Made by a program: the position numbers and the translations under genes | Notes under the pieces: generated by a model | Databases searched by the model: none | The model's input: only the letters and a program-made list of their open reading frames with translations | What the model was told of the DNA's origin: nothing | Assembly (NCBI GenBank): GCA_012862575.1 | Contig: BLSF01000030.1 | Location: 127,584-191,583 of the forward strand | Direction: 5' to 3' | Origin: Parietichytrium sp. I65-24A | Taxonomy: Eukaryota > Sar > Bigyra > Thraustochytrida > Thraustochytriidae | DNA: 64,000 nucleotides | Shown here: positions 6,336-63,788 of the stretch, piece after piece | How positions within the stretch are numbered: position 1 is the stretch's first letter | Layout: every line of letters begins with the position of its first letter

Positions 6336-6360
6336 GTTGATTGATTGATTGATTGATTGG
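6336..6360. repeat. TTGA tetranucleotide microsatellite
   Basis: Six tandem TTGA/GATT units in non-coding DNA. Confidence 0.85.
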
Positions 6361-18440: not shown

Positions 18441-18471
<31 letters not shown>

Positions 18472-19133: not shown

Positions 19134-21473
19134 ATGGAAGGGACGAGGGAGAATGAGATCGTGCTGGAGGAGAAGGAGATCGAAGATAGGAGGCTCGTGA
19201 AGAAGTCCAGCTTCTGTTGCGGCGGCTCTTTCTCTTGCACCAGCGCAGCAGATTCCAAGGTGGTGGGAGACAAAACCAAGGAAGGCGGTGCTGGCAAGAA
19301 GAACAAAGTCAAGTACCAGAACAACGTTGACGCGTGTTGCGAAGCCGGGTCGTGCTGCTTTGGGGAGGTCCTTCAATACGGGGAAAACATCGAACAACAG
19401 TACGGCCCGCTCCTCGCACAAGAGATCGACAAAGTGGTCACCATTCCGGCGCACTCCTCCGTCGAAATATCGACGACCCTAGAGCTCGGCGACTCCCTCG
19501 CGTGGGCAATTGAGGTGCTCCCTTCTGGGTGTCTGCCTGGCGGCTCAAATTCTCTCCGCATGAGCTGCTACTGGCTTGACAATACAAACAACGAAGCAAG
19601 AAACCCCGATGAAGACGCCTTTGGCATTGATGGGTACTGGCCTGCAAGGGAAGTGAGCCCGTCGAAAGAGCCGCACGTAGGTATGTTCAGCGTAGATGGC
19701 CAGACAACAAAGCGTGCCTCATTGATTATCTGTCTGGACAATGGAGCGTCCAACACCGGAAAGAAAACTGTTCGTCTCACATGCCAGCTTCGAGGAGTGC
19801 ACAAAGGCATGGAGGTGAAAACGCCGTACGGTTACGGCATTGCAACCGATTGGACCGGGTCATCCGTGGTCGTTGACCTCGGCTGGGGCCAAGCATACCT
19901 CCCGAGCCAAAGCGTCTTGATTGGCAACACTACGTCTGCCCAAGAGCAAACGAGTTTCCCTAAAGGAAAGTTTTGCTACGTTCTCCGAAGCAAACCACAT
20001 ATCCGGATCCAACAAGTCCACAAACCATTCAAGTACTACCCCAGCCTTGAGACCATGGGGATCAATAAAATTGCAGGGGCCTTTGATAGATCTGAAAACG
20101 CCCACGAAAAGCTCTGGGGCAAACTGAACGAAAAGGACAAGGCGGTTTTGATTGAAGCGTTTGAAGGCTTTGAAGTGGACAAACTCGTGGATTATCACGT
20201 TCACTTAATCGGATCAGGACAGAGTGGAAGCGGGTGCTTCTTAACACCAAACATGACCGACCCTTTTCGCTCGCCATTCGGCTACGTCAAATTGAACGCG
20301 TTTATGAGCGCTGCGGGTATTTCAGCAGTAAATAGTGACATGGCGTACGAAAATCGCCTCCTCACCCTTGCAAAGCACGTAGGGTTGGTGCCGTCCCTAT
20401 TGCAAGGACGTTCAGCCGAGGAGCACGTCCCGTGCAATAAACTCGTGTGCCTCGCCTTTGACAAGTCATACGACGAAAGCGGGGCAGAGCGAATGGACAA
20501 GACAACTCTCCACATCCCAAACAATTACTCAATGGATTTTGCACGTCGCAACCGTGACGTTTGCGTGGCAACTTGCTCCGTACACCCGTATCGCCAAGAC
20601 TGTGAGATGGAGTTGGAGAGGTGCTTTCGCAACGGTGCCAGAATCATCAAGTGGCTACCAAATAGCATGATGATCGACCCTCTATCGGAAAAGTGCGACA
20701 AGTTTTACAAAAAGGTTGCTGAGCTTGGTATGATCTTGCTTTCCCATACTGGCGAGGAGCACAGCGTTTCGTCCGCTGGCTTGGTGAATGAGTTTGGCAA
20801 TCCGCTGCGGCTCCGCAGGGCTCTTGACCATGGCGTAAAGGTCATCGCAGCACATTTGGCAACTGAGGGAACAGCGCTTGATCTCGACACCGTAGGGTGC
20901 AGCTCAATGTTGCCTGCTCGCGAGCTCAATTTCAAGTTGCTGATGAGGCTTATGCACGAAGAAAAATACAAAGACTTGCTCTTTGCTGACTTTTCGGCAA
21001 TCATTGCAATCAAACGAGCTGGATATATTTCGCAAATTCTGGACGCCACAGAAATTCACGACAGGCTCGTTTACGGCTCTGACTACCCGGTGCCGTGCCT
21101 TAATTTCGGCGTGGTGACTCGCCAACTTCAAATGTATGGACTCATCAATGGAGCACAGAGAAAGGTTCTTCAAAAGATTTACAAGGTAAGTATGCCCCAG
21201 CCATTCTATTTGTTCCGCCACGCGACTTGCTCACGGCGATACCTTGTGCTGACCCAACGATTGTCTGTTTAGTACAATCCTCTCTTTTTCGACCTTGCCT
21301 GCAAGCGATTCTTGCGCTCGAAAAAGGGCAACAAATTTCCGGACAAGTCTTATTATGAACACCCTCTTCTTCCTGTGACTGTGCCTTTTCAAGAAGCGAC
21401 GGTACGCTTTTCGCAGACAACTGCGAATTCCAATACCGCAGCTCCCGAGGCTTCTCAAATGGGGCACCTGTAA
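19134..21473 (+). CDS. Amidohydrolase with N-terminal beta domains
   Basis: Exon 1 is 19134-21185, the intron 21186-21272 (87 bp, GTAAGT..TTTAG, phase 0), exon 2 21273-21473; 750 aa. The C-terminal half is an amidohydrolase (metallo-dependent hydrolase, TIM-barrel) domain. It has an HxH pair in DYHVHLIG (about 352), a His in LSHTGEE (about 537), a His in AAHLA (about 571) and an Asp in YGSDYPVP (about 648). Exon 2 continues with YNPLFFDLACKRFL, a typical end of this family. The N-terminal part holds a GOLD-like beta region (about 99-222) and a short VKTPYGYG..WGQAYLP beta motif (about 227-259); both are tentative. The substrate is unknown. The open frame extends to a TTG at 18984, but 19134 is the first ATG. 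The gene converges on SPT16 with a 235-bp gap. Confidence 0.85.
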
Positions 21474-21708
21474 CCATCGACCGACAAACACCATATAGAA
21501 AGGGAACAAGAATTTGCAACTTCGATAAAAGGTAGCTCTTGCGCTCACTCGAAATGGGAAATGATAATGATGGATGCGTTGCCACCCACGAAAACTCCGA
21601 GTTCAGGACAACGACGCGAAGAATGCTGAAAAAGAAAAAAGATTCGTTCTAAAAATAACCCCCGGTGTTACGAATTTGTTAGCTAATCTGCCGACCTTGT
21701 GGCGCAGG

Positions 21709-24700
21709 TTAACGGCGCGAGCGCTTGCTGCTTTTCCGTTTCTGTTTGTCCTCTGCCTCAACCTCGGCTTCGCGTCGGCTCCTCTTTTTGTCGGCCTCTG
21801 CAGCCTTCCTGTCAAGCTCGTCCCAGTCCTCGCCCTCGTCTTCATCTTCATCACTCTCCGCCTCAGACTCGTCTTCGGACTCGTTACCTTCCCACGAACC
21901 CGCAGATCCTTCGCTGGAGCTGACTTCAGACTCTGCATCATCTTCGCTAAATGCCGATTCCTCGCTACCTTCACCTTCTTCATCGTCGGAGTCCTGGCCC
22001 TCAACGTTCAGCACGAGCCAGCCGACATCTTTTTTCTCGCCATCCAAGTCCACATCCTTCCAAAAGATGCCGTCCTCGATCTCGCCGTGAACGGTGTCCA
22101 TGATGACCTTCCAGTTCAAGGAATGGGACCCGACGGTGAATGTGATGTCGTTCTTGTCGTGAAGCCATTTTCGAATAATTTCAAAGCTTTCCATGGGGAT
22201 GGTGGTGACGCGCTGAGGGACCCCTGCGCCAGGAGTCATCTGGGATTTGAGGATAATGACCATGTCAAAGTTCTTCGTCCTTGCCCCCACGCGCTCAAAG
22301 TGAATGTGCTCAATGTCGTCTAGCGTCACAACGAAGAAAGGAGTCTCCGTAAGGTTGACAAGACAATGCACAGTTGGCGTGATGGTGACCATCTCTTTGT
22401 TTGGCACACCTGGGAAAGCGAGCTTGCGGTATGGCATATCAAAGTCGTTGTCCACTCCGATATGCTCGTCATTCTCCCTCGCAAACTGCACAGCTTTTGT
22501 GCAAAATGCTTTAAAGGCGTTGTTGAGCTTCTTCTTCATTCTGCGCTCCAGCTCTTCCTCTCTCTCCTCGTCGGGATCTCCCCTGTTTCGCCGGCCGCCA
22601 TCGATAGCTGCCGAAGCCTCCACGACTTCCTGGTAAAATTGGACGTCGTAGGACTTTGTGCGCCCGATCATGACCGGGTTCTTGAGATGAAAGTGAATGA
22701 GAACGGTGAGCTCTTGCTTGCACTCCTGGAAGAAAAAGTGCTTGATGTTGGCGAAAATGATGTCAAAACTTTCTGCGCTGCTGTTGATGCCATAACGATA
22801 TCTGAAGCCATTCTTGTGCACCTGCAGCGTTCCGCGGAGCTTTCCCTTCCTTGGCTGCGGCTTGATACCAACGTCATGAAGAGCGATACTCACGCTCTTT
22901 AGCGGCACCAAGTCCACCTGTTCGACAAGGTCTGCCTCTTGCTCCTTCTGCTTCTGCCTTGCGCGCACGCGTTTCTGCATCTCCTTGATGAGCCGGTATT
23001 GGTGCTGAAGATTCCGAAAGTCCCGCGAGCGGAAACTCATCTCCTTGATAAAACTGAGCTCTGGGAACTGTGTCATCACAATGCGCATGGAGGGCGGGAC
23101 GTCCTTAGCGAACGTACTGGACCCCGTGGGGTAGTAGAATTGCAATTTGAGCAGGCAGGCACGGTCTTCGTCAACGCGGTTGATTGCTTTAATTGTGGAA
23201 ATATGGAACGGGACGTGGTAGCCGCCGATTGGCAGGAGAACAGTGTCACGGTCTTTATCACAATACACTTGATTACGAATGAGCTGCTTTGGGTACTCAC
23301 GCGCCCCCTTCTTGTAGACGTTGAATGAATCGAGTGTGCCAACAACTTCCTCTTCGTTCTCCTCGTTGTCGCCGTCGTCCTCACCATTCTGTCTGCCAGC
23401 CCTGCGGAGCTCGCGCTTAGCTTTCTCCATAATCAGCTTGTACTGGTTCTCGTAAATTTTTTGTTCCAAGTTTGCAGCCTCGCGCTCCGCGGCAAGCTGC
23501 TCAGGGGTCTTCGTCTTTGAGCGAGTCTGGCGCTCAGTGGTGGCGTACGATTGCAGCAAGGCTGCCTCGTTGGCGTCGTCCTCCTCCCCGTCGTTTGAAT
23601 CGCCCTCGAGGTTGTAGTGGATATCGTCGAATGAGGAGAGATACTTGCTTGTGGGCACGCGAGTGCGGTAGTCCTTCAACCTGTCTACAAACACCATTTC
23701 TCCGATGAGCAAAGAGTACTTGCCTGTGGATAGCGAAGCCTTTTTCTCCTTTTCTGCATCCGACAACGGGATGTCGTGGAACCCAAGGTTGATGTAAAAG
23801 AGCATATTCTCCTCCACGACGACCTTGCTTCCAGACTGAATCTTCAGAGCTGGAAACATAGCTAGAACGCCCATGCCGATTCCGATTGACTCTGGGATGC
23901 AAGACACTAGCTCGGGTTTCTTCTCCTTTACGAACTCCACCATCTTGTCGTACACCTCCCCGAGGACGGCGCCAGGAACCAAGGAGTGTACGAGGGTTCG
24001 GAACGCATCGTCCAGAATCTTGTAATTCTCTCGCTGAGCCTTGGTCGCGTCCACGATCAAGGTGCGCGCGATGGCCGCGTAGAAATTCTCATACTGGACC
24101 ATGATCTGACACGCCAAGACGTCGCTGCAAAGTTTATCCGAATTCGCCTCTTTGCCAAGCTTGAAATTGTACTTGCCGCCGCTCTGCACCGAGCACTCGA
24201 ACGGAATCTCGAGGCCCTCCAAGTCTACGTTCTTCAGCTTGAGCTTTTTGCCTTTGGGATCCTTGAGGTACTTGTCCACGCTTTCCGCGAGGTCTTTGTT
24301 GGTCACTTTAATCTCATCCTCGTCTAGCGCTTCCTCCACCAGCTTGACAAATCCGTTCATGGCCCGTACCAAGACATAGCAAGCCGTATCGACAGTCTTC
24401 CTGGACGCCGCGCTAATCGGCGCGATGACGGCCTGAATCCCCGGCGACGCATCGACTATCTCCATCTCGCTCTCCTTCAATCTGCTCTCCAACGCAACTG
24501 CAAAATCGCCCACGGCCTTGTCATTCGTCGTGCCAATCTTCTTCCCATTAAGCGACTGCTTGAGCCCATCCATCAGCTCATCGAACGTTCCGTCCTGCAC
24601 ATTCTTCCCCACATCCACAAACTTAATCTCCAGCTCCACCTCCGCGGGTTTCTTATTCTGCAGCTCCTTCAGCAGCCGCAATTTCTTCCCGCTGCTAAGT

Positions 24701-24927
24701 AGCCAGAGCTTGCCCTCGGTCAACGCCACTACCGTGTTGGTCATCACTAGGCCGTCGAATAGGACCTTCTGCACGCCTTCCGCCAGCATGCCTTCGCCCG
24801 GCTGTTTCCCCATGCACATCACCACGCCGTCCGCGCCGGCCCAGGAACCAAATTCATCGCGAGATTGCGCCCAACTGCTCGCCAGCTGCGCGGCTCTGCG
24901 CCAGAACACCTTGCCGTTCAGCTCCAT
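21709..24927 (-). CDS. SPT16: FACT complex subunit SPT16
   Basis: A 1072-residue histone chaperone subunit of FACT, which with SSRP1/Pob3 moves H2A-H2B aside during transcription and replication (family knowledge). The length fits the family (about 1035-1050). The order is an N-terminal aminopeptidase-like domain (about 1-430), a charged linker rich in Glu/Arg, a dimerisation and middle domain with paired PH/Rtt106-like folds (about 540-930; motifs VYCDKDRDTVLLPIGG and FHLKNPVMIG), then a strongly acidic Asp/Glu/Ser tail ending in a basic NLS-like KRKSSKRSRR. The start is an ATG and there is no intron. A (G/A)AGTACT-rich segment lies about 155-170 bp upstream. Long open frames on the opposite strand here are shadows. 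Confidence 0.97.
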   Translation of the reverse strand: MELNGKVFWRRAAQLASSWAQSRDEFGSWAGADGVVMCMGKQPGEGMLAEGVQKVLFDGLVMTNTVVALTEGKLWLLSSGKKLRLLKELQNKKPAEVELEIKFVDVGKNVQDGTFDELMDGLKQSLNGKKIGTTNDKAVGDFAVALESRLKESEMEIVDASPGIQAVIAPISAASRKTVDTACYVLVRAMNGFVKLVEEALDEDEIKVTNKDLAESVDKYLKDPKGKKLKLKNVDLEGLEIPFECSVQSGGKYNFKLGKEANSDKLCSDVLACQIMVQYENFYAAIARTLIVDATKAQRENYKILDDAFRTLVHSLVPGAVLGEVYDKMVEFVKEKKPELVSCIPESIGIGMGVLAMFPALKIQSGSKVVVEENMLFYINLGFHDIPLSDAEKEKKASLSTGKYSLLIGEMVFVDRLKDYRTRVPTSKYLSSFDDIHYNLEGDSNDGEEDDANEAALLQSYATTERQTRSKTKTPEQLAAEREAANLEQKIYENQYKLIMEKAKRELRRAGRQNGEDDGDNEENEEEVVGTLDSFNVYKKGAREYPKQLIRNQVYCDKDRDTVLLPIGGYHVPFHISTIKAINRVDEDRACLLKLQFYYPTGSSTFAKDVPPSMRIVMTQFPELSFIKEMSFRSRDFRNLQHQYRLIKEMQKRVRARQKQKEQEADLVEQVDLVPLKSVSIALHDVGIKPQPRKGKLRGTLQVHKNGFRYRYGINSSAESFDIIFANIKHFFFQECKQELTVLIHFHLKNPVMIGRTKSYDVQFYQEVVEASAAIDGGRRNRGDPDEEREEELERRMKKKLNNAFKAFCTKAVQFARENDEHIGVDNDFDMPYRKLAFPGVPNKEMVTITPTVHCLVNLTETPFFVVTLDDIEHIHFERVGARTKNFDMVIILKSQMTPGAGVPQRVTTIPMESFEIIRKWLHDKNDITFTVGSHSLNWKVIMDTVHGEIEDGIFWKDVDLDGEKKDVGWLVLNVEGQDSDDEEGEGSEESAFSEDDAESEVSSSEGSAGSWEGNESEDESEAESDEDEDEGEDWDELDRKAAEADKKRSRREAEVEAEDKQKRKSSKRSRR

Positions 24928-26204
24928 GTCTGTGCGCGCGGTCTGTCCGATCTTCGTGCTCTTACTGCGTGGGACGCCGATGCCAACTGGGACGACGGCG
25001 TACGCGCCGAGGACACTTGGGTGGGTGGGTGGGTGAAGTTGGTGGGTTGCTCTTGTTGGATACTGTTTGTATGGGAGTGGAGTACTGAGTACTAGTGCTG
25101 TAGTGGAAGAACTTAGTGGAAGAACTTACTAAGTGGGGTTTGTTTGTTTGTTGGTTGAATTTTTTGATTTTGAGTTTTGATTTTTTGATTTTCTCGGCTA
25201 TTTCTTTCGAAAATTTCTTTCGAGTTTTTGCAGGAATTTTGAATTGAATTTTGAAAAAATGCGATTTTAGTTAAGGCTTTTCATAGGACTGTGATAAGTG
25301 CTTGCAAGACTTACTCGCGGTCGAGTAGTGTGGCTAGTCGCTTGCCTCATCTACTTAGCAGAGCTATCCGCGGTAGCGACGGATAGAGGGTCGGGTAGGG
25401 ATGCTTAGGGGAAAGTGTGGTAGTGAGAGGAGCGGTGGGACTGCTTAAGGGAGCACTACGGTTCGCGGGGAGCGGGTCTTTTTAAAAGAAGGGTTGGATG
25501 GTTACTGATGTTGGTGGGTGTGTAATAGCAGTGTGGCTGGAGAGTTAAGAGCTGAAGGTTCTGTGATTGGCGATGTGCGTGGCGATGTATCGTTTGAATT
25601 TTGTTTGAATTTTGTTAGGGAGTTTGTTGGAGTTTAGATTTTAGAATTTTAAAGCACGTCGGATGCGGAAAAGGAAATCTGTTCTGTAAAGTCTCGCGAT
25701 CAAATTTGAAGAGCCAAGCTTTGAAGAAATGCGACGCTGACGCTCTTTCCTTCATACATGCAGTACAGCTACCTTCCTTTTCGTTTTCGATCTCAGAACA
25801 GAATATTAACGCTCAGTCCCAGCGGAGACTTGCGCGACCATCCACCATCCTTCACCAATTCTATCCTATTGATGTGCAAGAGACGTTTATTCTGAATTCT
25901 GAATTAGAAAGAAAAAAATGGAGCTACTTTTTGTTATTGGTCGCAGACTGTCAATATGGGCCAAGGTAGACGGGCTCTCTCTCTCTCCTCTGCAGATCTG
26001 TGTGTCGATTCCAAGTGTGAAATGGCTTTGCAAGTTCGGAAGACTTACTGCACGCAAAACGGGTCCCAGTGCACGGTGGCGCCACAGCTGGAGGCGAGCC
26101 GGCTCGCCTGTCTTGTCTTTTTTTTTCGCTGTCCCTCTCCCTGTAGTTAGAAAACAAATTTTACATGTCGCAAAAAGACCAAAAAAAAGAAAAGACAGCA
26201 CCAA
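24928..26204. other. Intergenic region upstream of SPT16
   Basis: 1.28 kb between SPT16 and CSN4, both on the minus strand. It has GGGT repeats (25018-25036), the AGTACT pair at 25081-25100, and T-rich tracts with TTTTGATTTT at 25140-25260. No gene seen. Confidence 0.6.
25081..25100. promoter_or_regulatory. Paired AGTACT motif upstream of SPT16
   Basis: AGTACTGAGTACTAGTGCTG lies 154-173 bp upstream of the SPT16 ATG. It includes the 12-mer also seen at 8929. Similar AGTAC/GTACT clusters lie upstream of the AAGAB-like and VOC genes. A promoter role is inference. Confidence 0.35.
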
Positions 26205-27617
26205 TCAAGCTTTCTGATCCTGCAAATTGAGAGTGGGGTGCAACTTCTCGATGGTTTCCACCAGATTATTCACCCCGACACATAGCTCCTGTATCCGGTC
26301 ATCGAATGCAATTTGCGATGGCCGCTCGTTCGCAAAGTCCAAGATGCCATCGACCTGGTCGATAAATCCCTTCATGCGGCCCTCTTTGATCATCTTCGAA
26401 GCAGTTCGTTCGGCTTGCGGAGCATCAATGCCCAGCAGCCGCGCCAGCTCGTCGAACGAAATGTTGACGTAAATTCTGCTCGCCGCCAAGAGATTATGCT
26501 CGATAACCGCCCTCTCTAGCACAGTAGACCCATCCGCGAGCACGGCCTTTTGATGTGGTTCCAACGTCTCCTCGAACGCGAGCACCTCAGCCCTGGCGAG
26601 GATTCTTTCGCGGTACATCTTCTCCAGCACGGGCCAGTGTGTGTGGAAAACTCTCGTGCGCTCGTCTTTGTACAAGAGATTCAGCACCCGCGTCCGCTGC
26701 GGGCCCGCGCTCGCGAGCAACGCGCACGTCACGGCCTTGCCCAGCAAGTGCAAAAGATCGTCTTCCAGCACCTGCGCGCCGGCTACTTGCACGCTCTCTG
26801 CGCTCAGCTGATAGTATCTCTGCGCGGCGTCCAGAAACTTGCGCTTAGCGTCCAACACTCGCGCATAACAAACCTTATGTCGCACGCGCACCATCGCCAC
26901 GCTCTCCCGGTCCCCAGCAGCACCTTTCTCCATCTCCTTGTCCTTGTCGACATATGCATTCTCCACAGTTGCACCATCATTCGCTCCATCTCCGTCGTTG
27001 GCATTGGCATTGGCATTGACATTGGCATTGACATTGGCATTGGCAGAGCTGCTCGAAGAAGAAGAAGAAGAAGAAGAATTAGAAGAAGAGGAAGCAGCGA
27101 ACAGTTCGTCGTCACTGGCCGTGGAGAAGACATACTGTGAAGCGCGAGCCACGAACCTCTCCGCATCGACGGTCTCGTCGTCTTCCAGGAAGAGTTCCGC
27201 AATGCGCACGTACTTTGCGGCCTTCTGAGCGTCCGAGTACCTGCCCGACTCCACGTTCACGCCGCCGAGGACCCTTGCCGCGGCCGCGTACTCCTCCGCG
27301 TCCGCGAGGACCTGCCCGAGCTGTTCCCGGAACCGCGCGTCCAGTTCCTCGAACGCCACGCGCCGTTCCTGCAACGCCGCCAGGCAACGTTCCAGCACCG
27401 CGCGCCGGGCGCCGGGAGAGGAGCCCAGCCCGCCCGCGCCGAGGACGTCCGCGAGGTGTCCCAGAACGGGACGCGAAACGGCTAGTTGGGTGTCCTCGCG
27501 CGCCACGCGACTCACTGTAACGCACAGGCCGTCCCCGTCCTCAGCGCGGACCTGATGCTCGATAACCGACTTGAGAGCCGCCACTGGCTCGGCGCTCTGC
27601 AACGCTGCGTCCGCCAT
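26205..27617 (-). CDS. CSN4: COP9 signalosome subunit 4
   Basis: A 470-residue PCI-domain subunit of the COP9 signalosome, which removes NEDD8 from cullins (family knowledge). The C-terminal PCI region is clear: [32 protein letters not shown]-type sequence, then a winged helix with [16 protein letters not shown]. The N-terminal half is the helical-repeat arm. The protein is about 65 residues longer than typical CSN4. The excess is a low-complexity loop (about residues 180-215) of Ser followed by Ala/Asn/Val, encoded by AGAAGA-type and GCATTG/ACATTG repeats. It has an ATG start and no intron. A TACGTACGTACG run sits immediately upstream of the ATG, at 27624-27636. Confidence 0.93.
26998..27078. 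repeat. Coding GCATTG/ACATTG and GAA repeats in CSN4
   Basis: A hexanucleotide array (26998-27046) and a nearby trinucleotide array (about 27056-27078). On the minus strand they encode Asn-Ala/Asn-Val and poly-Ser. Both keep the reading frame of an otherwise conserved gene. Confidence 0.9.
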
Positions 27618-28171
27618 GCTTAATACGTACGTACGTATGTTTGAGTATGTGTGGGTGCGCGCGATTGCTATGGCGCTGCTTAGATCAGTGCGTAGTTGTA
27701 CGGTGAGAGGGGGGTACGCGCACTTTTGCGATGTCAGAGAAGTGCCGAGTTTGGATCAAATTGTTTTGCGATGTGTGGATTGTTTTGCGATGTGGATTTT
27801 TGATGCTGGTTTACTGCTGCTGATTTCGATTGAAATGGTTTTGTTTTGAAACTGTGTTTCGGGTTTGGGATGATGACAGGATGACAGGATGACAGGAGTT
27901 CTCTCTTTGGAGTGTCGTTTGTGCCGTGTTTTGAGATCGGTGAGACGAAAATGAAGTAGAGCTGTTCCGATGAGTAATTTTTTTTAAGATGGTCGCGGAA
28001 AGCTGCACTGGTCGCTGCCCTTTTTTAAAAGATGCTATATGAATTCAAAGTGTGGTTAGAACGTTGGAGGAGATTCGGTAGGGCAAAGCGCGGGCAGAAG
28101 CAAGGGCTGAAGCCTGGGCGAGCCATGAGTCTTGCTTGGTGTAGCGAAAAGACACAAATGTACACAAGGGA
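27618..28171. other. Intergenic region between CSN4 and methyltransferase
   Basis: 554 bp between two minus-strand genes. It has the TACGTACG run beside the CSN4 start and a GATGACAG repeat (about 27869-27897). No gene seen. Confidence 0.6.
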
Positions 28172-29071
28172 CTAAGCTTCAACGTTGCTGTCATTTTCCT
28201 CGTTATCGTCGCTGTCCATGTCCGAAGAGCCGTGGTAGACCACCTTCATAGTGGCCACGCCACGAGAAGCTTTCGCTCGACGAAGACTCATAGAATGCTG
28301 CTCGGCTTTGTGAAACTCGTACACTTGGAGCGGGCATACATCTGTGATGTGCACACGAACTTTCCAGTGACTGGACGAGTTTTCCAACAGAGTCGTCAGC
28401 ACTGTGTCTTGCAAATAGTCGGCGTTCTCTGCATAGTCCATTTGTGTGACGAGAATGAACACTCCTCCTGTCTTCAAAACCCGGCTTACGTGGGCGAGAA
28501 CTTTGGAGACCTGTCCAGGGCCTCCGTCCCCAGGGAGATGTAAAATCGTGTCCATAGTCATCTTATCAATCATCACATCCGCAGACTCGGGTTCTAGCAT
28601 CTTGTCCAGTTCAGTAAGATCACACTGCTTGAATACAGTGTCTGCGACCGGTAGTTCGGCAGCCTTCTTGTTCATCAAATCCACAGCGCTTTGCGCAAAG
28701 TCAAGGCCCACCATCTTTCCTTTCCAACCGCCTTTGCGCATCTCAAAAAGAAGATCAGACAAGCCGCACCCCAGATCTACGATAAGCCCATCATCTTCCT
28801 CGATCTTCCAATCATCCAGGATGGCTTCAAGATCAGAATAGCCAAAGCACCATTCTGCCGTCTCCTCTCCCTCTTCACCTTCACCTTCCTGGTCTTCAGC
28901 TTGTGCCTTGGCTTTGCCATTGGAGGCTTTTGAAGCATATTTCTTCTCTTCCGAGCTGCTCACCTTCCCAGACTCTGCTTTTGATGCGCCATCTTCCCCA
29001 GCTCCCACGGCATTTCGAGCGTATCTCGCCTCCCAGTATTCTTGGTCTTCGTACCTCCTTCTTTTGGGCAT
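28172..29071 (-). CDS. Class I SAM-dependent methyltransferase, METTL13/EEF1AKMT4-like
   Basis: A 299-residue Rossmann-fold methyltransferase. The N-terminus has EDQEYWEARYAR, typical of the METTL13/EEF1AKMT4/CSKMT group, which modifies lysines of proteins such as eEF1A (family knowledge). A Lys/Glu/Ser-rich insert (about 30-70) precedes AEWCFGYSDLEAIL. SAM-binding motif I is LIVDLGCGLSD (about 97), motif II MVGLDFAQSAV, and the motif IV position is DVMIDKMTMDTIL. RVLKTGGVFILVT follows as motif VI. The C-terminus is acidic. The start is an ATG with no intron. The target cannot be read from sequence. It diverges from the CobW gene across 718 bp. Confidence 0.85.
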   Translation of the reverse strand: MPKRRRYEDQEYWEARYARNAVGAGEDGASKAESGKVSSSEEKKYASKASNGKAKAQAEDQEGEGEEGEETAEWCFGYSDLEAILDDWKIEEDDGLIVDLGCGLSDLLFEMRKGGWKGKMVGLDFAQSAVDLMNKKAAELPVADTVFKQCDLTELDKMLEPESADVMIDKMTMDTILHLPGDGGPGQVSKVLAHVSRVLKTGGVFILVTQMDYAENADYLQDTVLTTLLENSSSHWKVRVHITDVCPLQVYEFHKAEQHSMSLRRAKASRGVATMKVVYHGSSDMDSDDNEENDSNVEA

Positions 29072-29789
29072 AGTTTGTGTTTTTGGGTGTTTGCGTGTTA
29101 GAAGTTGTGTCTCTTTCTGCCCTCAAGACTTTCGAGTTCACAAGCGGCTACTCTTTTCAAAACTCAAGCAGTAAGTTGAGCTATGCGCAAGAGTATACTC
29201 CTGTGCTTCTTTCGTACTTCGCAGAATTGTGTTCTGTCTGGCATGTGAATATGTGAATGCACACTTCTCTCTCCTCTAGCTAGTAGTAGCCTATAAGTTC
29301 AACCAAAACACCTAAGAGATGGTTGACTATCAAAAAGCCATGGGACGACCTTATGAGAAACTAGTAGTATTGTGAACTTTTTGTGCATCTCGAATGTCTA
29401 ACTTGAACTTCAAGACATCTCTCTTAAAAATGTTTCCTAGCTTTTCGTGTAGCTATCTGGTCTTCTTCCGGCACCACTCTTTGCTGTTATACTTAATGGT
29501 ATCACGTGATTACGGACTGCTGTCTCCACAAGCTTACCCAAACATCTCACCAAGTACTACTAACGGATGGGATGCGGGGAGCATAGTCGTCCACCCTTTC
29601 AGCTAAGTAACTCCTTCATCAGGTACGGCACTCCCTGCCTCAGCAGAAAAGCAGAAAAGATCTCTCCTCACAACACTCACATCACTCACATCACTCACAT
29701 CGCCACACAACCAGCAGCCCGGCGAATTCCCCTTCCTCCTCCTGCCGAGGACGCATTGAATTTTGCGAAGTCGTTTGGGGACAGGAACC
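29072..29789. other. Divergent intergenic region
   Basis: 718 bp between the methyltransferase (-) and the CobW GTPase (+), presumably with both promoters. It includes a CACATCACTCACAT repeat (about 29674-29700) and a CAAGTACTACTAAC segment at 29550-29563. No gene seen. Confidence 0.6.
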
Positions 29790-31508
29790 ATGGACGGCGA
29801 GGAAGACGGCGCGGTGGGCCAACAAGAAGAGGTGAAGAAGGACGAAGAAGAAGAAAAGGAAGAGGAAAACCAAGTTGAGGAGGGGAACATGGATGATGAT
29901 GATGAAAATGAAGATGAAGATGAAAATGATGATGATGGCCAAGTTGATGAAGACGAAGACGAAGAAGGCATGGAGGACGAAGAGGAGATTGAGAAGGTAC
30001 CAGTGACTGTAATTACGGGGTTTCTAGGTAAGTTGGGTGGGTTTGGAGGTTTGGAGGCTTGGGTGAAGTGGGATTTGTCCAAAGTCCAAAGTATCGGGGC
30101 CGGGTGGGTTCGTGTGAGGTTTGTGTTGTATTCTGATCGAATTGGAGGTTGAAATTTGCGCGCAGGTGCTGGAAAGACGACGCTTGTGAACCACATCTTG
30201 AAGGACCCGTCGCACGGCATGAAATTCGCGGTGATTGAGAACGAATTTGGAGAGATCTCGATCGACGATGCAATCATAAAGAGCAAAAGCGATGAGATTA
30301 TTGAGGTTCTGAACGGTTGTGTGTGCTGCACAGTGCGAACTGATCTGTCCAAGACGGTGAAGAAGCTTTTGGAACGCAAGGATGATTTCGATGCAATCAT
30401 TATCGAAACTACGGGTATGGCGGACCCCAGCCCGGTCGCTCAAACCTTCCTCGTGGACGAGGACATCATTCCGTACTGTTCGCTGGACGGGATTGTGACG
30501 GTAGTAGACGCCAAGCACGTTTTAAAGCATCTCAGCGAAGATCGCAAGAACAAAGAAACCCAAGAAGAGGTTGTGAATGAGAGCATTCAGCAGATCGCTT
30601 TTGCTGATCGCATTCTCTTAAACAAGGTGGACCTCGTAAGTAAAGAGGATCTCGCCGACGTGAAAGAGCAGATCATGGAGATTAATTCCACCGCCAAAAT
30701 CTACGAAACAGAGCGCTCCAAAATCGACCCAAAGCTCCTCTTTGGTATGAGCAGCTTTAGTGTGGAAAGGGTTCTCGAATTTGAGCCCGAGTTTTTGAAG
30801 GAAAAGTCTGACGCGAAAAAGGAAGGCGAAAGTGGAAATGAGCATGGTCATGGTCACAGCCACGGCGATCATGGCGAATGCAAAGAACCCCATTGCAGCT
30901 CTGAAGAACACGGCCACAGCCATAGTCACGGCCATAGCCACGGTGACCATGGGGCCTGCAGCGACCCACATTGTAGCTCGGAAAAGAAAAAGCATAACCA
31001 CGACCGCTCTGTGGGCTCTCTTAGTTTTCGATTCGAGGGAGACATAGCACTTCCAAAGCTTGATGACTGGATCCGTGATATGCTCAAGGAAAAGGGGGAC
31101 GATTTGTACCGTTATAAAGGGGTCATTTCTGTGGCTGGCATGAATGAGCGCTATGTGTTCCAAGGCGTGCACATGCTCTTTGAAGGTGACTTTCACTCGC
31201 CATGGCTTGAGAATGAAGTTCGTGTTTCCAAATTTGTATTTATCGGAAGGAACCTCAATCGCGAAGAGATAGAGAATGGCTTCAACTCTTGCAAGGTGTA
31301 TCCTTTGCGATTCAAGGTTGGCGACAGGGTTGAGATTAACGCAGGCGAAGGAGACTTTATCCCAGCAGAAGTTGTCAGCATTTGGAGCGACGGATACCCA
31401 TATCGCATTCTTCCTGAAGACCAGGATGAGGAGGAAGCCATGTGGGTCCCAGAAGACACTGACGAGTGGATACGTGCCAACAGCGCCAAGAAACAGCGAA
31501 CTGAGTGA
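29790..31508 (+). CDS. CobW/COG0523 metal-chaperone GTPase with C-terminal beta domain
   Basis: Exon 1 is 29790-30027, the intron 30028-30165 (138 bp, GTAAGT..GCAG), exon 2 30166-31508; 526 aa. The intron splits the P-loop; spliced it reads ITGFLGAGKTTLVNHIL. The COG0523 metal motif GCVCC lies near 131 and the G4 motif NKVD near 232. A His-rich metal-binding stretch with HGHSHGDHG repeats and two DPHC/EPHC motifs lies at about 304-358, followed by the CobW C-terminal domain to about 455. Members deliver or buffer zinc or other metals with GTP hydrolysis (family knowledge). The N-terminus is a 70-residue Asp/Glu run without the CPELVPI motif of ZNG1, so ZNG1 identity is not claimed. The tail (about 461-518, FKVGDRVEIN to PEDTDEWIR) looks like a small SH3/Tudor-type barrel. 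Confidence 0.93.
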
Positions 31509-54180: not shown

Positions 54181-54279
54181 TTCCGAATTGGGGGCTCGAA
54201 CCCCAGACCATTCGGTGTTCTTTACCGAGGCCTAGACCTCGTTAAGAGCCGAACGCTCTACCAACTGAGCTAACCCGGA
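54181..54279 (-). tRNA. tRNA-Lys(CTT) with 26-nt intron, copy 1
   Basis: Folds as a complete cloverleaf. The acceptor TCCGGGT pairs with ATTCGGA, discriminator A. The D arm is GCTC-AGTTGGTA-GAGC, the anticodon stem TTCGG/CCGAA with loop C-T-CTT-A-A, the variable loop TGGTC and the T arm TGGGG-TTCGAGC-CCCCA. A 26-nt intron starts directly after position 37, the canonical site, and contains a CGAGG/CCTCG hairpin. Anticodon CTT reads AAG codons. CCA is not encoded. The T7 run follows. Confidence 0.95.
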
Positions 54280-55563: not shown

Positions 55564-55662
55564 TTCCGAATTGGGGGCTCGAACCCCAGACCATTCGGTG
55601 TTCTTTACCAAGGACTAATCCTTGTTAAGAGCCGAACGCTCTACCAACTGAGCTAACCCGGA
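55564..55662 (-). tRNA. tRNA-Lys(CTT) with variant 26-nt intron
   Basis: The mature part is identical to copy 1 in all stems and loops. The intron differs. Its hairpin reads CAAGGA/TCCTTG instead of CGAGG/CCTCG, so a G-C pair has become A-T by changes on both sides. The intron's last 12 nt, GGTAAAGAAC region, are unchanged. This covariation supports a functional folded intron. Confidence 0.95.
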
Positions 55663-55898: not shown

Positions 55899-55996
55899 TC
55901 CGGGTTAGCTCAGTTGGTAGAGCGTTCGGCTCTTAACGAGGTCTAGCCTCGGTAAAGAACACCGAATGGTCTGGGGTTCGAGCCCCCAATTCGGAA
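55899..55996 (+). tRNA. tRNA-Lys(CTT) with 25-nt intron, copy 4
   Basis: Complete cloverleaf as in copy 1, on the opposite strand. The intron is 55936-55960 (25 nt), starting after position 37, with stem CGAGG/CCTCG and a loop one base shorter than copy 1. The discriminator is A, followed by C and a T7 run. Confidence 0.95.
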
Positions 55997-56673: not shown

Positions 56674-58080
56674 ATGGCGCCGTCAATGTCGCACGAATGG
56701 GCCATCGAGAAGGCCAAGTCGAGCAGGTCGCAGTGCAAAAGGTGCTTTGAAAGGATCGCACAAGGCGGGTTGAGGTGGGTGAATGAGACGCATTATGACA
56801 AAACTGGAGGGGTCATCACCGTGTATTATCATGTCAACTGCCTTGCGTACCCAGCGGCGGAGGCCGAGAGGTTCGAGCTGAGTGATGTCAAAGGCTTTGA
56901 CTCACTTGGAAAGAAGGATCAGCAAGTTGTCAAGAATGCATGGCAGCTTGCGAAAGAGCAGAGACCGGCAAAGCGAGTGGAGCGCTCGATGCCATCCAGC
57001 TTTGACATGTTTCGATCGAAAACGTTGAAAAAGCGCAAACTGGAAAAGAGTTCTATCGACTACGAAGATCTCAGTTTAGAGGAATTGCGAGACTTTCTCC
57101 GAATGAATCGCCAGCTGCAGCTGGGAAAGAAGGACGAACTTGTTAAGAGGTGCGAAGAAATGAGTCGCAACGGACGCCTTCTGCCATGTCCCGCTTGCGG
57201 ACACGGACAGCTTGCTTTAGATGAGAGTGGCATGGTGTCCTGTCATGGGTATTGGGACGAAGAAATTGAAATGCGAGACGCCTGCGACTTCACTGCGGAG
57301 CCATCTGACAAGCGCGTCCCGCGCGGAAAATGGCTCATCCCTACAATCGATGATCCTGTGGATTCAGAGTTTGCGATGAAGCGCGAGTCCCAAGCAAGCA
57401 ACGGTGGGGAGAACAAGACGAAGCTGGACTTGCTTAGTCGCCAAACTCTCTTACGCGTCTTCAACGATCGAGCCGGAGTCAAGAAAGAGGGTGAGAACGG
57501 CGACAACCTTGCGAGCACAACTCTACAAGTTTGTCGAATGCTAGACATCTCACTCCCCGACAAGGAAGAAGATGCGCTGAAGATCGTTCGCCAAGCCCTC
57601 AAAGTTCAAGAAGAGGTGGAAGGCAAATCTGATAGCGCAGAAGGTCGTGAAGTGGAGTTGGCTGATCGAGCTGCCAAGGCGCTGAGGGTCGAGCATGGCA
57701 TGAAAATCTCCAGAGCTGACGTCGAAGCAGCGAAAATTATTGGGCCGCCACCTCAGGCTGTTGTAAAAGAGAATGGATGGATTGCGGATGCAATCGACAA
57801 CCTTGGACATTTGGAAGCTGCCGAAAAGGAGAGCTCGTCGGTGATGTGGAGGGTGAGGGCTAACCATCGGGCCGCATCTGCGATTCGCCAAATTCCTTTC
57901 AGGATAACGTGCGGCAAGGACGTCGCGAAAGTCCCGGGAATAGGGAAGAGAACGGTAGATCGCATTGACGAGCTGTTGAAGACTGGGGCCATCGAGAAAG
58001 CGGAGGAGATCAAGGCCAAAGTTGAAGAGAAAGAGAAAAACTCCAATATCAAAGAGGAGGTCGCCAAAAAGGAACAGTAA
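56674..58080 (+). CDS. PARP zinc finger + PADR1 + Pol X 8-kDa-like domain protein
   Basis: 468 aa; first in-frame ATG at 56674 (the frame extends to a TTG). Residues about 7-95 are a PARP-type DNA-break zinc finger with CKRC and HVNC ligands around a GLRW core. Residues about 128-205 match the PADR1/third zinc domain of PARP1: helical LSLEELRDFLRMN, then LLPCPACGHGQL, a third Cys in VSCHGYW and a fourth in RDACDF. After a charged linker, about 365-440 match the N-terminal 8-kDa helix-hairpin-helix domain of family X DNA polymerases (WIADAIDNLGHLE, ANHRAASAIRQIPF, KVPGIGKRTVDRIDELLKTG). The lyase lysine of Pol beta is Arg here. No ADP-ribosyltransferase, BRCT, WGR or polymerase palm domain follows. 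A nuclear break-binding adaptor is inferred. Confidence 0.88.
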   Translation: MAPSMSHEWAIEKAKSSRSQCKRCFERIAQGGLRWVNETHYDKTGGVITVYYHVNCLAYPAAEAERFELSDVKGFDSLGKKDQQVVKNAWQLAKEQRPAKRVERSMPSSFDMFRSKTLKKRKLEKSSIDYEDLSLEELRDFLRMNRQLQLGKKDELVKRCEEMSRNGRLLPCPACGHGQLALDESGMVSCHGYWDEEIEMRDACDFTAEPSDKRVPRGKWLIPTIDDPVDSEFAMKRESQASNGGENKTKLDLLSRQTLLRVFNDRAGVKKEGENGDNLASTTLQVCRMLDISLPDKEEDALKIVRQALKVQEEVEGKSDSAEGREVELADRAAKALRVEHGMKISRADVEAAKIIGPPPQAVVKENGWIADAIDNLGHLEAAEKESSSVMWRVRANHRAASAIRQIPFRITCGKDVAKVPGIGKRTVDRIDELLKTGAIEKAEEIKAKVEEKEKNSNIKEEVAKKEQ

Positions 58081-58368: not shown

Positions 58369-59355
58369 TCATCGCAAAGTTGCACTTTGCTTGCTCCACG
58401 GCAGCTGGAATAAGTAATATACGTAGCCGTCTCCGGGCGATTTATTCCACTCGGAACAAACTTTTCTAAGCCCAAAGCGGCGAACGTCTTTGTTTGTGGA
58501 CTCATACACGTTCATGTACGCTTTAAGCCCAATTTCTTGACCATCGAGGCCCACAAGATCAAATCGGATCGCAAGATGGTCGTCCTTGGTGACCTCGAAA
58601 GAAATTTTGCACTCGTCCCAGTCGCTTCTGAGCGTCTTTTCAATTGTTGCCAGAATTTCTGGCAGTGCATCGCGAGACACGGTGTTTAAGCTGTGCTTCC
58701 CACTCCTTCCAGCAGGTATGAATGGCACAAGCGGTGCCTTCGATTCGGAACCTTCCTGGAGTTTGCTTTCTTGAGATTTCCCTTCGACTGCCCCACCATG
58801 AATGTCCTCAGGCCGATGAACGCCAAGGTAAGGGAAGCGATAGCTCTTATCTCCAAAGCCATCCTCGTACTTTTGTGTCCGCCCAGTCGAAGAATAAATG
58901 AAGTCACGCCCCCCTCCAAACTCAAGAGCCTTGGCTTTGCTTCTCATACGGTCCTGAGCCTCAAGCTCTTTCTGTAGCGTGTATTTCGAAGGCACGTACT
59001 CAAATTGCTGAAAGAGTCCATTGTTCCGAGCAGACTCTCGGCGCGCCTTGACGACTTCCTCGGACACGAGTCCGGCACGCTGCTGTTCCAACATCTTCAA
59101 CTGCCGAGCAATTGCAATCTCGCCAGGCTTGAGGTTATTCGGCAGATCGCGAATACTCGCGAAAGCCGCAGACGAGTACGCCTCGCGAATGAAGTCCTGC
59201 TCATAATTGTTGTACCCGCCGCTCTGGCTCTGGCTTCCCCCGCCATTGTAGAAATGGTTCACGCTCACGTCCAGCTGGCTTTCGTTCTGCCCGGCAAAGA
59301 ACGCGATTTCGCGCAAGTAGTTTCCATACTCGCCGAGGCTGTCGTCTTCGAGCAT
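58369..59355 (-). CDS. Unrecognised 328-aa conserved-looking protein
   Basis: The first in-frame ATG is 59355; the frame extends to a TTG at 59403. I do not recognise the family. Residues about 1-60 contain a Gly/Ser/Gln/Asn-rich segment with tyrosines. The middle (about 65-180) is helical and basic (AIARQLKMLEQQRAGLVSEEVVKARRES, then LQKELEAQDRMRSKAKAL). The last 100 residues look like a folded alpha/beta domain (LPEILATIEKTLRSDWDECKISFEV, LAIRFDLVGLDGQEIGLKAYMNVY), rich in aromatic and acidic residues. No membrane segment or signal. Codon use matches the neighbours. It converges on the PARP-finger gene with a 288-bp gap. Confidence 0.75.
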   Translation of the reverse strand: MLEDDSLGEYGNYLREIAFFAGQNESQLDVSVNHFYNGGGSQSQSGGYNNYEQDFIREAYSSAAFASIRDLPNNLKPGEIAIARQLKMLEQQRAGLVSEEVVKARRESARNNGLFQQFEYVPSKYTLQKELEAQDRMRSKAKALEFGGGRDFIYSSTGRTQKYEDGFGDKSYRFPYLGVHRPEDIHGGAVEGKSQESKLQEGSESKAPLVPFIPAGRSGKHSLNTVSRDALPEILATIEKTLRSDWDECKISFEVTKDDHLAIRFDLVGLDGQEIGLKAYMNVYESTNKDVRRFGLRKVCSEWNKSPGDGYVYYLFQLPWSKQSATLR

Positions 59356-60010: not shown

Positions 60011-60575
60011 TTGATTTGATTTGATTTGTTTTGTTTTGTTTTGTTTTGTTTTGATTTGATTTGATTTGATTTGATTTGATTTGATTTGATTTGATTTGAT
60101 TTGATTTGATTTGATTTGATTTGATTTGATTTGATTTGATTTGATTTGATTTGATTTGATTTGATTTGATTTGATTTGATTTGATTTGATTTGATTTGAT
60201 TTGATTTGATTTGATTTGATTTGATTTGATTTGATTTGATTTGATTTGATTTGATTTGATTTGATTTGATTTGATTTGATTTGATTTGATTTGATTTGAT
60301 TTGATTTGATTTGATTTGATTTGATTTGATTTGATTTGATTTGATTTGATTTGATTTGATTTGATTTGATTTGATTTGATTTGATTTGATTTGATTTGAT
60401 TTGATTTGATTTGATTTGATTTGATTTGATTTGATTTGATTTGATTTGATTTGATTTGATTTGATTTGATTTGATTTGATTTGATTTGATTTGATTTGAT
60501 TTGATTTGATTTGATTTGATTTGATTTGATTTGATTTGATTTGATTTGTTTTGTTTTGTTTTGTTTTGTTTTGTT
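60011..60575. repeat. TTGAT/TTGTT pentanucleotide satellite, 113 units
   Basis: Units in one unbroken 5-bp register: 3 TTGAT, 5 TTGTT, 99 TTGAT (60051-60545, no substitutions) and 6 TTGTT. The TTGTT blocks flank the long TTGAT block on both sides. Confidence 0.98.
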
Positions 60576-60803: not shown

Positions 60804-63788
60804 TCAATGAAGATAGTAATTGAAGAGGAAAATGAGGAGCCCGAAGAACAACGAAGCGTTGAAGAACGCAACGATGAACGGCTTGAGCCGGTGCAGGGAC
60901 CGTAGCGAGTGTGACATTGCCTGATTCTGAGGAGCAGGGACGGGCGTCTTGGGATCCGCATCGCTTTTGCGATGCCTTTGACGAACGGACGAAGATTTCT
61001 CCGTGATGCTCTCCAGGCCGGTCTTGCCAGCAGTCCCGACTTCAGCTTGGCTTGAGCTAGGATTGGAGACAGAAGACTCATTCTCTGCTCCGGAACCGTT
61101 TAGTGAATGAAGTACTCCATCACGGTCGATGAAACTTGCTCCCTGTTTCCTCAACGCTGCCCTCTGCTTGGACTTGTCCATCAAGACAAGGTCAATCTCT
61201 GGTGCCTCCCGAAGGTTCAAGCAGCGGATCGTCGTTGCCACCAAAACTCTCTCCGGCATTTCTTGGTCCTTCTCGGCTTGGATAACGAGCGCGCAATCCA
61301 AGATCGCGTTGTGGACTCGATCTAATATTGGCATGGCATTCGAGAGTACAAAGTACTTAAACAAATGATAATCAATATCGATCTCAAAGTAGCCCCGCCC
61401 TTTGTGAAATTCGTACTCGGGTCTGACGAGCCAGGGCTTGCCATTGTACATTGTCAAAAGCTTCGTCTCGAGCCTGCCAAGATCCACCTCTTCTTTGTTC
61501 TCGAGCCTCGTGATCATCTTGAGGCGCTCGCGGAACGGATCTCCGTCATGCGCATGCACAAACCGGCTCCATACTTGAACGGATGGGTCCTCAGGATTAC
61601 TTTTTGCCCAGTCGCTGAGACGCGCAAACAGCACGATTGACTGACCGGGACCGTCGATTTTCTTCTTCGAAAAGGGGCCGGACGGAGGGTACCCGGGCAT
61701 CATCATGTTGACAATGAGGAGCTCCGGGAGCGGTGCAAGCTGTCCCGGTGAGGGATGCGACTCGCTGAGATCAGGAAGCTGCATAAAGCTGGCAATGTGC
61801 GGCCGCTTTGACTCCAACTGCCATACATCGCAGCACACGCAATCATATATAGAGTGTCCAGAGGGCGCCTTTTTCTTTTGTTTCTTGTAATCTGGCCCAA
61901 CGCGGCACTCGAATCTGCTTCCATCGCACTCGCTCCAGCTATTCACCTCTCGGCTTGGATCGTCCCGCGGCACTTTCTTCATCGAGGCTCCAGCTTCCAT
62001 TACGAATTTGACCTGTCCAAGTAGAGAATCGGTTCGACTCTCGGGTCTGGCTGCGGAGGCAGACACGCGCGGCGAGCCAAGCGAGGCGGAAGATTTGCGC
62101 TTGAAGGACGTCCTCGGGCTCGACGACGGGTTTGCAACGGGCGAGAATTCGGAAATGCTCTGCGCCATAGAGATACTGCGACGCAAGATGTTCGTTTTCG
62201 GTTCTGACTCATCGGAGGCGGGTTGACTTAACGGAGAAGCAATTTGCTGCTGCGAGGCGTGTTTGCGAGCCAGTACTTGCGCCAATGTGTCCGCAGTTGG
62301 GTCCGACGACGAAATGCTCTTTTTGCGCAGAATATGCCTCTTGAGGAAACGCTTCACCTTAAAACGCTTGCCGCGGCGGCTGGAGCCGGCCTCGCTCCCG
62401 GAGTATGGAATCTGAACCTTTGATCGATGAGCAACGTCCCCGATGTCGCTGAGCGGGCTGCTTGTGGAGCTGCAATCAGCCTCCTCCATTGCGACCCCCT
62501 CCACGCGCACATTTGAAACTTGGTAGCGCAGTCTGAACTGAAATCTATCAACGGCTTTCTCTCGAGTGGCAAGGAAATCTCGAAAGCCTTCGTCCTCCTC
62601 AACGAGGGACCCCACATGCTGCCGTATGGCATTCTCCGTGTCGAAATCCCCAGTTTCGCTGAGCCCAGCGAAGGCAGCCGGCCCGAGACAAATAGTGTCA
62701 TCCTCGTCTTCCTCTTCTTCTCCTTCGTAATTGTGATGGTCGCTGTCCAGCGCGACGTCACCGTCGCTCTCGCGCTTGGCCCTCCTATTTATAGACGAGA
62801 ACGATTCGTCATTCTTCAACGTGTCAGGAGGGACTAGGCCGAGTCCGTCCACTCCAAAGTCGGCCTTGCTGGTCCCTCCGAACCGCTCCTGAAGCTGATC
62901 GGGATCAATTAGCTTGAGAAACTTATTGTCGCGTTTCTGCTCCCTAACAAACACAAACTTCTTCTCCGTCTTTTCGTCGAATCGTTTAGAGATCATCTTC
63001 CACAGCACCCAAACGATCGGCATGGTAGGGTACACGAAGCAGACGCCAAGCCGCTCCGGGTAAAAGTTCTGCAGCAAAGGGATGAGTTTCAGCATAAGTT
63101 TCATATCCACATTGTGCCTGGTCGAGTTGATGTAGTCCACAATCACCACCACATCGTCCACATCTGGCTCGAACAGCTTGGTCTCCAGCTTCCAGATCAG
63201 GTACCTGATCGTCGTCTCCGCATTGAACAGCGCCGGGTCGTGTCTGCAGCCCCTGATCACCAGAATGGGCCGGTTCGACTTGTCCCTCCCGTGCCAGTAC
63301 GCCATTCCCCACCTGTCCTGCGCCATGAACTCGTAGTCCCTCTCCAAAATCAGGTCCACCTTGTGGTCTTTCCGCCACTTGAGCACGTTCAGCGCCTGCT
63401 CGAACGCCGCGTCCACGTCACCGTCCCGCGCCACCACCAGCCGCCGCAGACCCACCGTCTCCGTGTCCTTCGCCTTCATCAGGCGCACCGCCAGCGCATC
63501 GTTCTGCAGCAGACTGCGCAGCTTGCCCACCTTCTCCTCCACCTGCGCCTCCGTCAGCGCCGGCAGCGCCGGACTTGCCGTGGGACTCAAGGTGGGACTG
63601 CTGGGACTGCTGGGACTTGTGGGGCTCGTGGGACTCAAGGTGGGACTGGTGGGACTGACCTTGGGCAGAGCGAGGGGTCCGCGCTTGCCGGAGAGTTGTT
63701 GGTCCGCGCTCTCGGAAGCAGCAGCAGCAGCGTCGTCAGCGTCGTCAGCGCCGTCACCTTCAGCGCGTTTCTTCTGCATCGCGCGCAT
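60804..63788 (-). CDS. SEC14 (CRAL-TRIO) + EDR2_C lipid-binding protein with C-terminal membrane anchor
   Basis: 994 aa, ATG start, no intron. After a Ser/Pro/Thr repeat region (about 35-75, SPTSPTLSP) comes a CRAL-TRIO N-terminal helix pair and lipid-binding domain (about 75-265; RRLVVARDGDVDAAFEQAL, DRWGMAYWHGRDKSNRPILVI, LIPLLQNFYPERLGVCFVYPTMP). A long low-complexity linker has KRKSS-type basic clusters. Residues about 595-870 are an EDR2_C/DUF1336 domain (SWSECDGSRFECRVGPDYKK, LPELLIVNMMMPGYPP, GYFEIDIDYHLFKYF, NAILDCALVIQ). The last 25 residues form one hydrophobic segment (IVAFFNASLFFGLLIFLFNYYL), a tail anchor. A lipid sensor or exchanger at an organelle surface is inferred. Confidence 0.92.
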   Translation of the reverse strand: MRAMQKKRAEGDGADDADDAAAAASESADQQLSGKRGPLALPKVSPTSPTLSPTSPTSPSSPSSPTLSPTASPALPALTEAQVEEKVGKLRSLLQNDALAVRLMKAKDTETVGLRRLVVARDGDVDAAFEQALNVLKWRKDHKVDLILERDYEFMAQDRWGMAYWHGRDKSNRPILVIRGCRHDPALFNAETTIRYLIWKLETKLFEPDVDDVVVIVDYINSTRHNVDMKLMLKLIPLLQNFYPERLGVCFVYPTMPIVWVLWKMISKRFDEKTEKKFVFVREQKRDNKFLKLIDPDQLQERFGGTSKADFGVDGLGLVPPDTLKNDESFSSINRRAKRESDGDVALDSDHHNYEGEEEEDEDDTICLGPAAFAGLSETGDFDTENAIRQHVGSLVEEDEGFRDFLATREKAVDRFQFRLRYQVSNVRVEGVAMEEADCSSTSSPLSDIGDVAHRSKVQIPYSGSEAGSSRRGKRFKVKRFLKRHILRKKSISSSDPTADTLAQVLARKHASQQQIASPLSQPASDESEPKTNILRRSISMAQSISEFSPVANPSSSPRTSFKRKSSASLGSPRVSASAARPESRTDSLLGQVKFVMEAGASMKKVPRDDPSREVNSWSECDGSRFECRVGPDYKKQKKKAPSGHSIYDCVCCDVWQLESKRPHIASFMQLPDLSESHPSPGQLAPLPELLIVNMMMPGYPPSGPFSKKKIDGPGQSIVLFARLSDWAKSNPEDPSVQVWSRFVHAHDGDPFRERLKMITRLENKEEVDLGRLETKLLTMYNGKPWLVRPEYEFHKGRGYFEIDIDYHLFKYFVLSNAMPILDRVHNAILDCALVIQAEKDQEMPERVLVATTIRCLNLREAPEIDLVLMDKSKQRAALRKQGASFIDRDGVLHSLNGSGAENESSVSNPSSSQAEVGTAGKTGLESITEKSSSVRQRHRKSDADPKTPVPAPQNQAMSHSLRSLHRLKPFIVAFFNASLFFGLLIFLFNYYLH
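63594..63655. repeat. Coding GTGGGACTG repeat
   Basis: About six GTGGGACTN-type 9-bp units encoding the SPTSPT/SPSSPT stretch on the minus strand. Same word family as at 39510-39542. Confidence 0.85.

Follow-up and report, generated by a model that had tools for sequence, protein, structure and literature searches.

What would a protein do if it had the DNA-end-binding parts of PARP1 and of an X-family DNA polymerase, but neither enzyme? This question is raised by a locus in Parietichytrium sp. I65-24A. The window that we analysed is a stretch of 64,000 nucleotides (contig C30:127584-191583), and the genome surveyed around it is an assembly of 42.5 Mb in 172 contigs. The original prediction placed an ORF at 56674-58080 on the forward strand. 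It is there as described, an uninterrupted reading frame that encodes 468 amino acids (aa) and stops with TAA. Its parts are as follows.

56674..58080, + strand: the whole ORF, with a PARP-type zinc finger (zf-PARP), a PADR1-like block, a middle region and a Pol X-type HhH domain; a paralog has the same order.
56707..56943, + strand: PARP-type zinc finger, aa 12-90; Pfam E = 1.9e-13 and alignments with PARP1 Zn1 and Zn2.
57052..57171, + strand: SAP-like helical part of the PADR1-like block, aa 127-166; SAP E = 0.92 only, with an alignment, a profile match to PARP1 Zn3 and 40% identity with the paralog.
57172..57348, + strand: zinc ribbon and tail of the PADR1-like block, aa 167-225, with four cysteines; Pfam E = 5e-4, below the cut-off, with an alignment and a profile.
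57349..57753, + strand: middle region, aa 226-360; no Pfam match and 25.7% identity with the paralog.
57772..58017, + strand: Pol X-type 8-kDa domain (HHH_8), aa 367-448, with WR at 392-393 and PGIGKR at 421-426; Pfam E = 6.3e-13, a match to Pol beta residues 12-90 and letters of Pol lambda.
57961..57963, + strand: codon of R430, aligned with the Schiff-base Lys72 of Pol beta in a PDB-sequence alignment counted from chain position 12.

The position-specific GC content of the ORF is 0.581/0.395/0.590, and it is similar in the next ORF (58369-59355). This lies 288 bases downstream on the opposite strand, convergent with the first, and has a coding-like composition and no Pfam family. Three tRNA genes were found upstream (Rfam, 52.1 bits each), at 54181-54279 (-), 55564-55662 (-), and 55899-55996 (+), two of them back to back just before the ORF. 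ARAGORN, run with bacterial settings, missed all three, probably because each has an intron by the anticodon. We read them as probable Lys (CTT) tRNAs. On the other side, at 60011-60573, is a TTGAT tandem array of 112.6 copies (99% match) that adjoins GGAGT repeats. It yields a 226-aa ORF of NQIKS repeats on the other strand, which is probably spurious. Beyond it, an ORF of 994 aa with CRAL/TRIO and EDR2_C domains (Pfam) occupies 60804-63788 (-). Ordinary eukaryotic neighbours are found at 16541-31508: a Ulp1-type protease, an amidohydrolase, SPT16, a CSN4/PSMD12-like PCI protein, a methyltransferase, and a CobW-type GTPase.

The N-terminal module had been read as a CxxC..HxxC PARP-type finger, and our searches agreed. 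The Pfam zf-PARP model matched aa 12-90 with 51.4 bits, above its cut-off of 39.3 (E = 1.9e-13), and inspection gave C21, C24, H53, and C56 as the putative ligands. With both the model match and a CCHC set of ligands, the module belongs to the zf-PARP family. In a search of PDB sequences, this part of the protein matched PARP1 Zn1 and Zn2, and a longer alignment with 9mi8 extended into Zn3. In all, zf-PARP was found at seven places in the genome.

The C-terminal segment was confirmed to be of the Pol beta/lambda N-terminal type. HHH_8 matched aa 370-438 with 49.3 bits against a cut-off of 30 (E = 6.3e-13), which places the segment in that family. The C terminus also aligned with residues 12-90 of Pol beta over 82 residues (best E = 5.9e-9, PDB sequences). 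An NCBIfam Pol X model matched both this HhH domain and that of the paralog, weakly and far below its cut-off (E = 0.0016 and 1.9e-6). We then mapped Pol beta residues on the PDB-sequence alignment, with chain position 12 as the start of the count. H34, K35, Y39, and K60 fall on W392, R393, N397, and A418, and K68, K72, and K84 fall on R426, R430, and K442. Human Pol lambda reads WRA..PGIGKRMAEK, which shares the W, the R, and PGIGKR with the window protein, in which the Schiff-base lysine is changed. Thus, the arginine proposed for the Schiff-base position was found there, as R430. At Pol beta positions 35, 68, and 72 the paralog has K, G, and I. The genome's own Pol X reads GIGPKILEKIDE and keeps the Schiff-base lysine. 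Neither copy has the lysine at 72 that is characteristic of a Pol beta-type dRP lyase. A passage of PMC5689576 reports that Pol beta K72A is defective in dRP lyase activity, and a passage of PMC11050361 gives the 5'-phosphate site of Pol beta as Lys35-Lys72-Lys84. Because K72 serves both phosphate binding and the lyase, R430 could still bind phosphate. Because K72 is within the phosphate site, the isoleucine should weaken the grip of the paralog. The residues in the two copies fit the expectation of binding without lyase activity.

The claim of a PADR1 block with four cysteines stood for the cysteines but not at the Pfam cut-off. PADR1_N (Pfam) did not match the window protein. Zn_ribbon_PADR1 matched aa 168-196 with 20.2 bits, below the cut-off of 25.1 (E = 5e-4), and the ribbon of the paralog was also below it (E = 0.08). 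Below its cut-off, the ribbon model matched 4 of 14 prokaryotic control genomes as well (E up to 0.1), so a lone weak match proves little. Therefore, seven blocks from the genome itself were aligned and made into a profile: those of the window protein and its paralog, three from C8, and one each from C59 and the PARP1-like protein on C92. All seven keep the four cysteines of the ribbon. The best match of the profile was human PARP1 Zn3 (2jvn, E = 6.7e-7), which is easier to find with the genome's own PARP1 among the seven sequences. The next were SAP-type domains of MKL1 (E = 0.0025) and THO1 (E = 0.0039). The invariant cysteines and the match to Zn3 suggest that, most likely, the block is a diverged homolog of PADR1/Zn3, near the SAP and ribbon proteins of the same genome. 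HHH_8 is significant on its own, and PADR1 is weak in Pfam and supported by the profile. If the ribbon blocks are true PADR1, the domain would also occur outside PARPs here, contrary to a 2010 statement, in a passage of PMC2964712, that it is found only in clade 1 PARPs. On C8, SAP and PADR1-like ribbon repeats occur in adjoining, near-identical ORFs (L033, 2535-4930), one with an unresolved base, and parts of such repeats occur again at 5254-6912. This is either a local duplication or an assembly problem.

The window protein was predicted to have no catalytic domain. Pfam listed no catalytic family in it, and the TAA stop follows the HhH domain. Without a PARP catalytic domain (PF00644), it is outside the ADP-ribosyltransferase family. 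It also has none of the WGR, regulatory, and BRCT domains of a PARP1-type protein, no Pol X palm, and no ERCC4 nuclease after the HhH domain, as in MUS81. All of these are elsewhere in the genome. A PARP1-like protein on C92 has zf-PARP, PADR1_N, BRCT, WGR, PARP_reg, and PARP, and the two HHH_8 places other than the window protein and its paralog are a Pol X with a palm (C17) and a MUS81-like protein with ERCC4 (C44). We also searched the genome sequence for a catalytic exon that might follow. None of the seven PARP-catalytic matches and neither of the two Pol X palm matches (both on C17) is on C30 or on C41, where the paralog is, and the next ORF in the window is on the opposite strand. XRCC1_N had 0 matches in this genome, but no control genome matched either, so its absence is not established. 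DNA_ligase_A_M was found at five places, none near a PARP-type finger; on the sole contig that has both (C6), they are ~353 kb apart. These two results leave room for a scaffold role and are not proof of one.

This genome reuses the PARP-type finger in several proteins of repair type. On C17 (L039), an ORF at 956-4108 (-) has zf-PARP, an SNF2 ATPase, and a C-terminal HNH domain, an order that we take to be ZRANB3-like. On C57 (L040), an ORF from 4147 (+) has zf-PARP, SNF2, and RING, and its SNF2 and RING combination is presumably Rad5-like.

The strongest evidence on the architecture came from a search of the genome with the window protein, which gave nine matches at E <=0.1, itself included. 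Among them, the sole other place with a finger, a ribbon, and an HhH domain was C41:268748-270148. The ORF there (L032:3246-4655) encodes 469 aa, with the modules in the same order. The two proteins are 36% identical (149 of 416 aligned positions). By block, identity is 52.6% in the ribbon and tail, 40.9% in HhH, 40.0% in the SAP-like part, 32.5% in the finger, 26.7% in the linker, and 25.7% in the middle region, so the ribbon and tail are the most conserved of the blocks compared. The HHH_8 match of the paralog is over the Pfam cut-off (39.4 bits). Its zf-PARP match is below (35.9 against 39.3 bits), and its finger reads CxxxC instead of CxxC. For the middle region, the alignment consists of the two copies only. 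That of the window protein had no Pfam match, and that of the paralog had a DUF4330 stretch at chance level (E = 0.19). The paralog ends 13 residues beyond the Pfam end of HhH (30 residues in the window protein). There is no donor-like GTRAG around its stop, in L032:4501-4760, and a convergent sulfotransferase ORF follows. Although zf-PARP has seven places in the genome and HHH_8 has four, they share one ORF at only two, on C30 and C41. An unlinked duplicate with the same architecture indicates that the combination is beyond chance.

These findings support the interpretation made at the outset, that the protein is a stand-alone break or gap adaptor. We infer this role from the domains, their order, and the duplicate gene. 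We consider it reasonably likely that this is a nuclear, noncatalytic DNA-damage adaptor for strand breaks or 5'-phosphate gaps, and its probable task is to flag broken DNA or keep it in place for other proteins of repair. At a nick, gap, or double-strand end, the N-terminal finger would bind the bases exposed at the end of the stack, and the C-terminal HhH domain would take hold of the downstream strand, including the 5'-phosphate. Between the two, the PADR1-like domain would offer a surface for contacts with protein or DNA. With no enzyme domains and no Schiff-base lysine, the protein would bind a break or gap and hold it, then pass it to, or shield it from, enzymes such as the cell's own PARP1, Pol X, and ligases. 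Zinc binding, DNA binding, a nuclear site, and the recruitment of partners are all predicted by such a role. Several observations argue for it: the zf-PARP and HHH_8 matches above the Pfam cut-offs, the profile match to PARP1 Zn3, the unlinked paralog with its shared order and end, and WR and PGIGKR as in Pol lambda. In addition, domain identity between the copies is higher than in the middle region or linker, and Arg or Ile stands in for the K72 lysine that the Pol X of this genome retains. Others argue against it. PADR1 is below the Pfam cut-off in both copies, as is the finger of the paralog, and the ribbon model also matched prokaryotic controls weakly. The window protein has N397 and A418 in place of Pol beta Y39 and K60, and in the paralog Lys is retained at 35, whereas 68 is Gly and 72 is Ile.

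The main rival, which we consider unlikely, is that the protein is a decoy or brake. It would compete with PARP1 and Pol X for ends and limit poly-ADP-ribosylation or gap filling instead of recruiting. The protein has PARP1 finger and Zn3-like parts and a Pol X gap grip, with neither enzyme, and both a PARP1-like protein (C92) and a Pol X (C17) are encoded in the genome. However, recruitment fits the same anatomy equally well, and sequence cannot separate the two. Also, the PADR1-like block of the window protein, which is 45% identical to that of the paralog, is nearer the non-PARP SAP and ribbon blocks of C8 and C59 (26-34%) than that of the genome's own PARP1 (22%). Therefore, it need not dock on PARP1 partners.

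Somewhat more doubtful is a DNA-binding factor of chromatin or replication, in which the finger and HhH domain would be general DNA grips and break sensing would be secondary. Known proteins use SAP-like, PARP-type, and HhH modules to bind DNA. The genome puts zf-PARP on the two SNF2 proteins, with HNH (C17) and with RING (C57), and also has the SAP and PADR1-like ribbon proteins (C8 and C59). However, the families of zf-PARP and the Pol X HhH domain are known above all from their action at strand interruptions, and this pair of outer modules was kept together in two copies.

It is improbable that the protein is an active dRP/AP lyase that uses another HhH lysine. Lysines are left in the domain, K419, K425, and K442 among them, and some dRP lyases do without the HhH lysine of the Pol beta type: according to a passage of PMC5579206, the HhH lysines of Pol iota are dispensable for dRP lyase activity, and other lysines mattered. 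However, K72 was replaced differently in the two copies (Arg and Ile), though the genome's own Pol X keeps Lys. Least probable of all is a gene-model artefact, in which the gene either continues into a catalytic exon or is what decay has left of a larger enzyme: a donor-like GTAAG (58077) overlaps the stop, but neither C30 nor C41 has a PARP or palm match, the ORF 288 bases downstream is convergent and has no Pfam family, and an unlinked paralog with the same modules, order, and end shortly after HhH, no GTRAG there, and a convergent ORF next to it argues against truncation, a missing exon, and gene-model error alike.

A broader proposal can be made tentatively. The two proteins may represent an unnamed eukaryotic family of enzyme-free strand-break readers with at least two diverged paralogs. 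A PARP-type finger would read the exposed end and a lyase-dead Pol X gap grip the 5'-phosphate, and the family would act as a repair scaffold where XRCC1_N is unmatched and ligases are apart from fingers. If so, break sensing by a PARP finger and gap binding by a Pol X HhH domain would have been separated from the enzymes and combined in a specialized reader protein. This would show how a lineage may scaffold base excision repair without an evident XRCC1, and the protein would offer a naturally occurring tool for work on nicked or gapped DNA.

We looked for relatives and descriptions elsewhere. Two short peptide patterns gave 102 matches in viral contigs and 45 in prokaryotic genome contigs, none confirmed, and scans with only these two patterns could miss distant relatives. 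PHROGs had 0 families for the window protein, and a paralog match to phrog_391 (E = 0.082) was taken as chance. In titles and abstract openings of the open-access literature, we found among the matches listed no description of a finger, a PADR1-like block, and a Pol X HhH domain in one enzyme-free protein, and nothing on zf-PARP paired with HHH_8. Database entries of the same kind, without a name, may well exist.

Several known systems can be compared with the protein. The SAP and PADR1-like ribbon proteins on C8 and C59 share its SAP-like and four-cysteine ribbon block, but they have no HHH_8 match, and a zf-PARP-like start is seen only weakly, in the C8 protein (E = 0.063). As in the N-terminal part of PARP1 (Zn1/Zn2 and PADR1/Zn3), a PARP-type finger is followed by a PADR1-like domain. 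However, human PARP1 has two such fingers and the window protein has one, and an HhH domain comes next in place of BRCT, WGR, regulatory, and ADP-ribosyltransferase domains. Its HhH domain resembles the 8-kDa domain of Pol beta and Pol lambda (HHH_8, E = 6.3e-13), with WR and PGIGKR as in Pol lambda. Unlike theirs, it has lost the Schiff-base lysine, has no fingers or palm match, and is C-terminal instead of ahead of a polymerase. XRCC1 is a nonenzymatic scaffold of single-strand-break repair at nicks and gaps. The likeness to it is in the proposed role only, because the window protein has no XRCC1_N or BRCT match. In DNA ligase III, zf-PARP is a nick sensor that is fused to the enzyme, and the window protein has no enzyme. 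Arabidopsis ZDP, described in a passage of PMC10573277, shows that zf-PARP outside PARPs is already known, but its nick-sensing finger too is fused to an enzyme, whereas that of the window protein is joined to a Pol X-type HhH domain.
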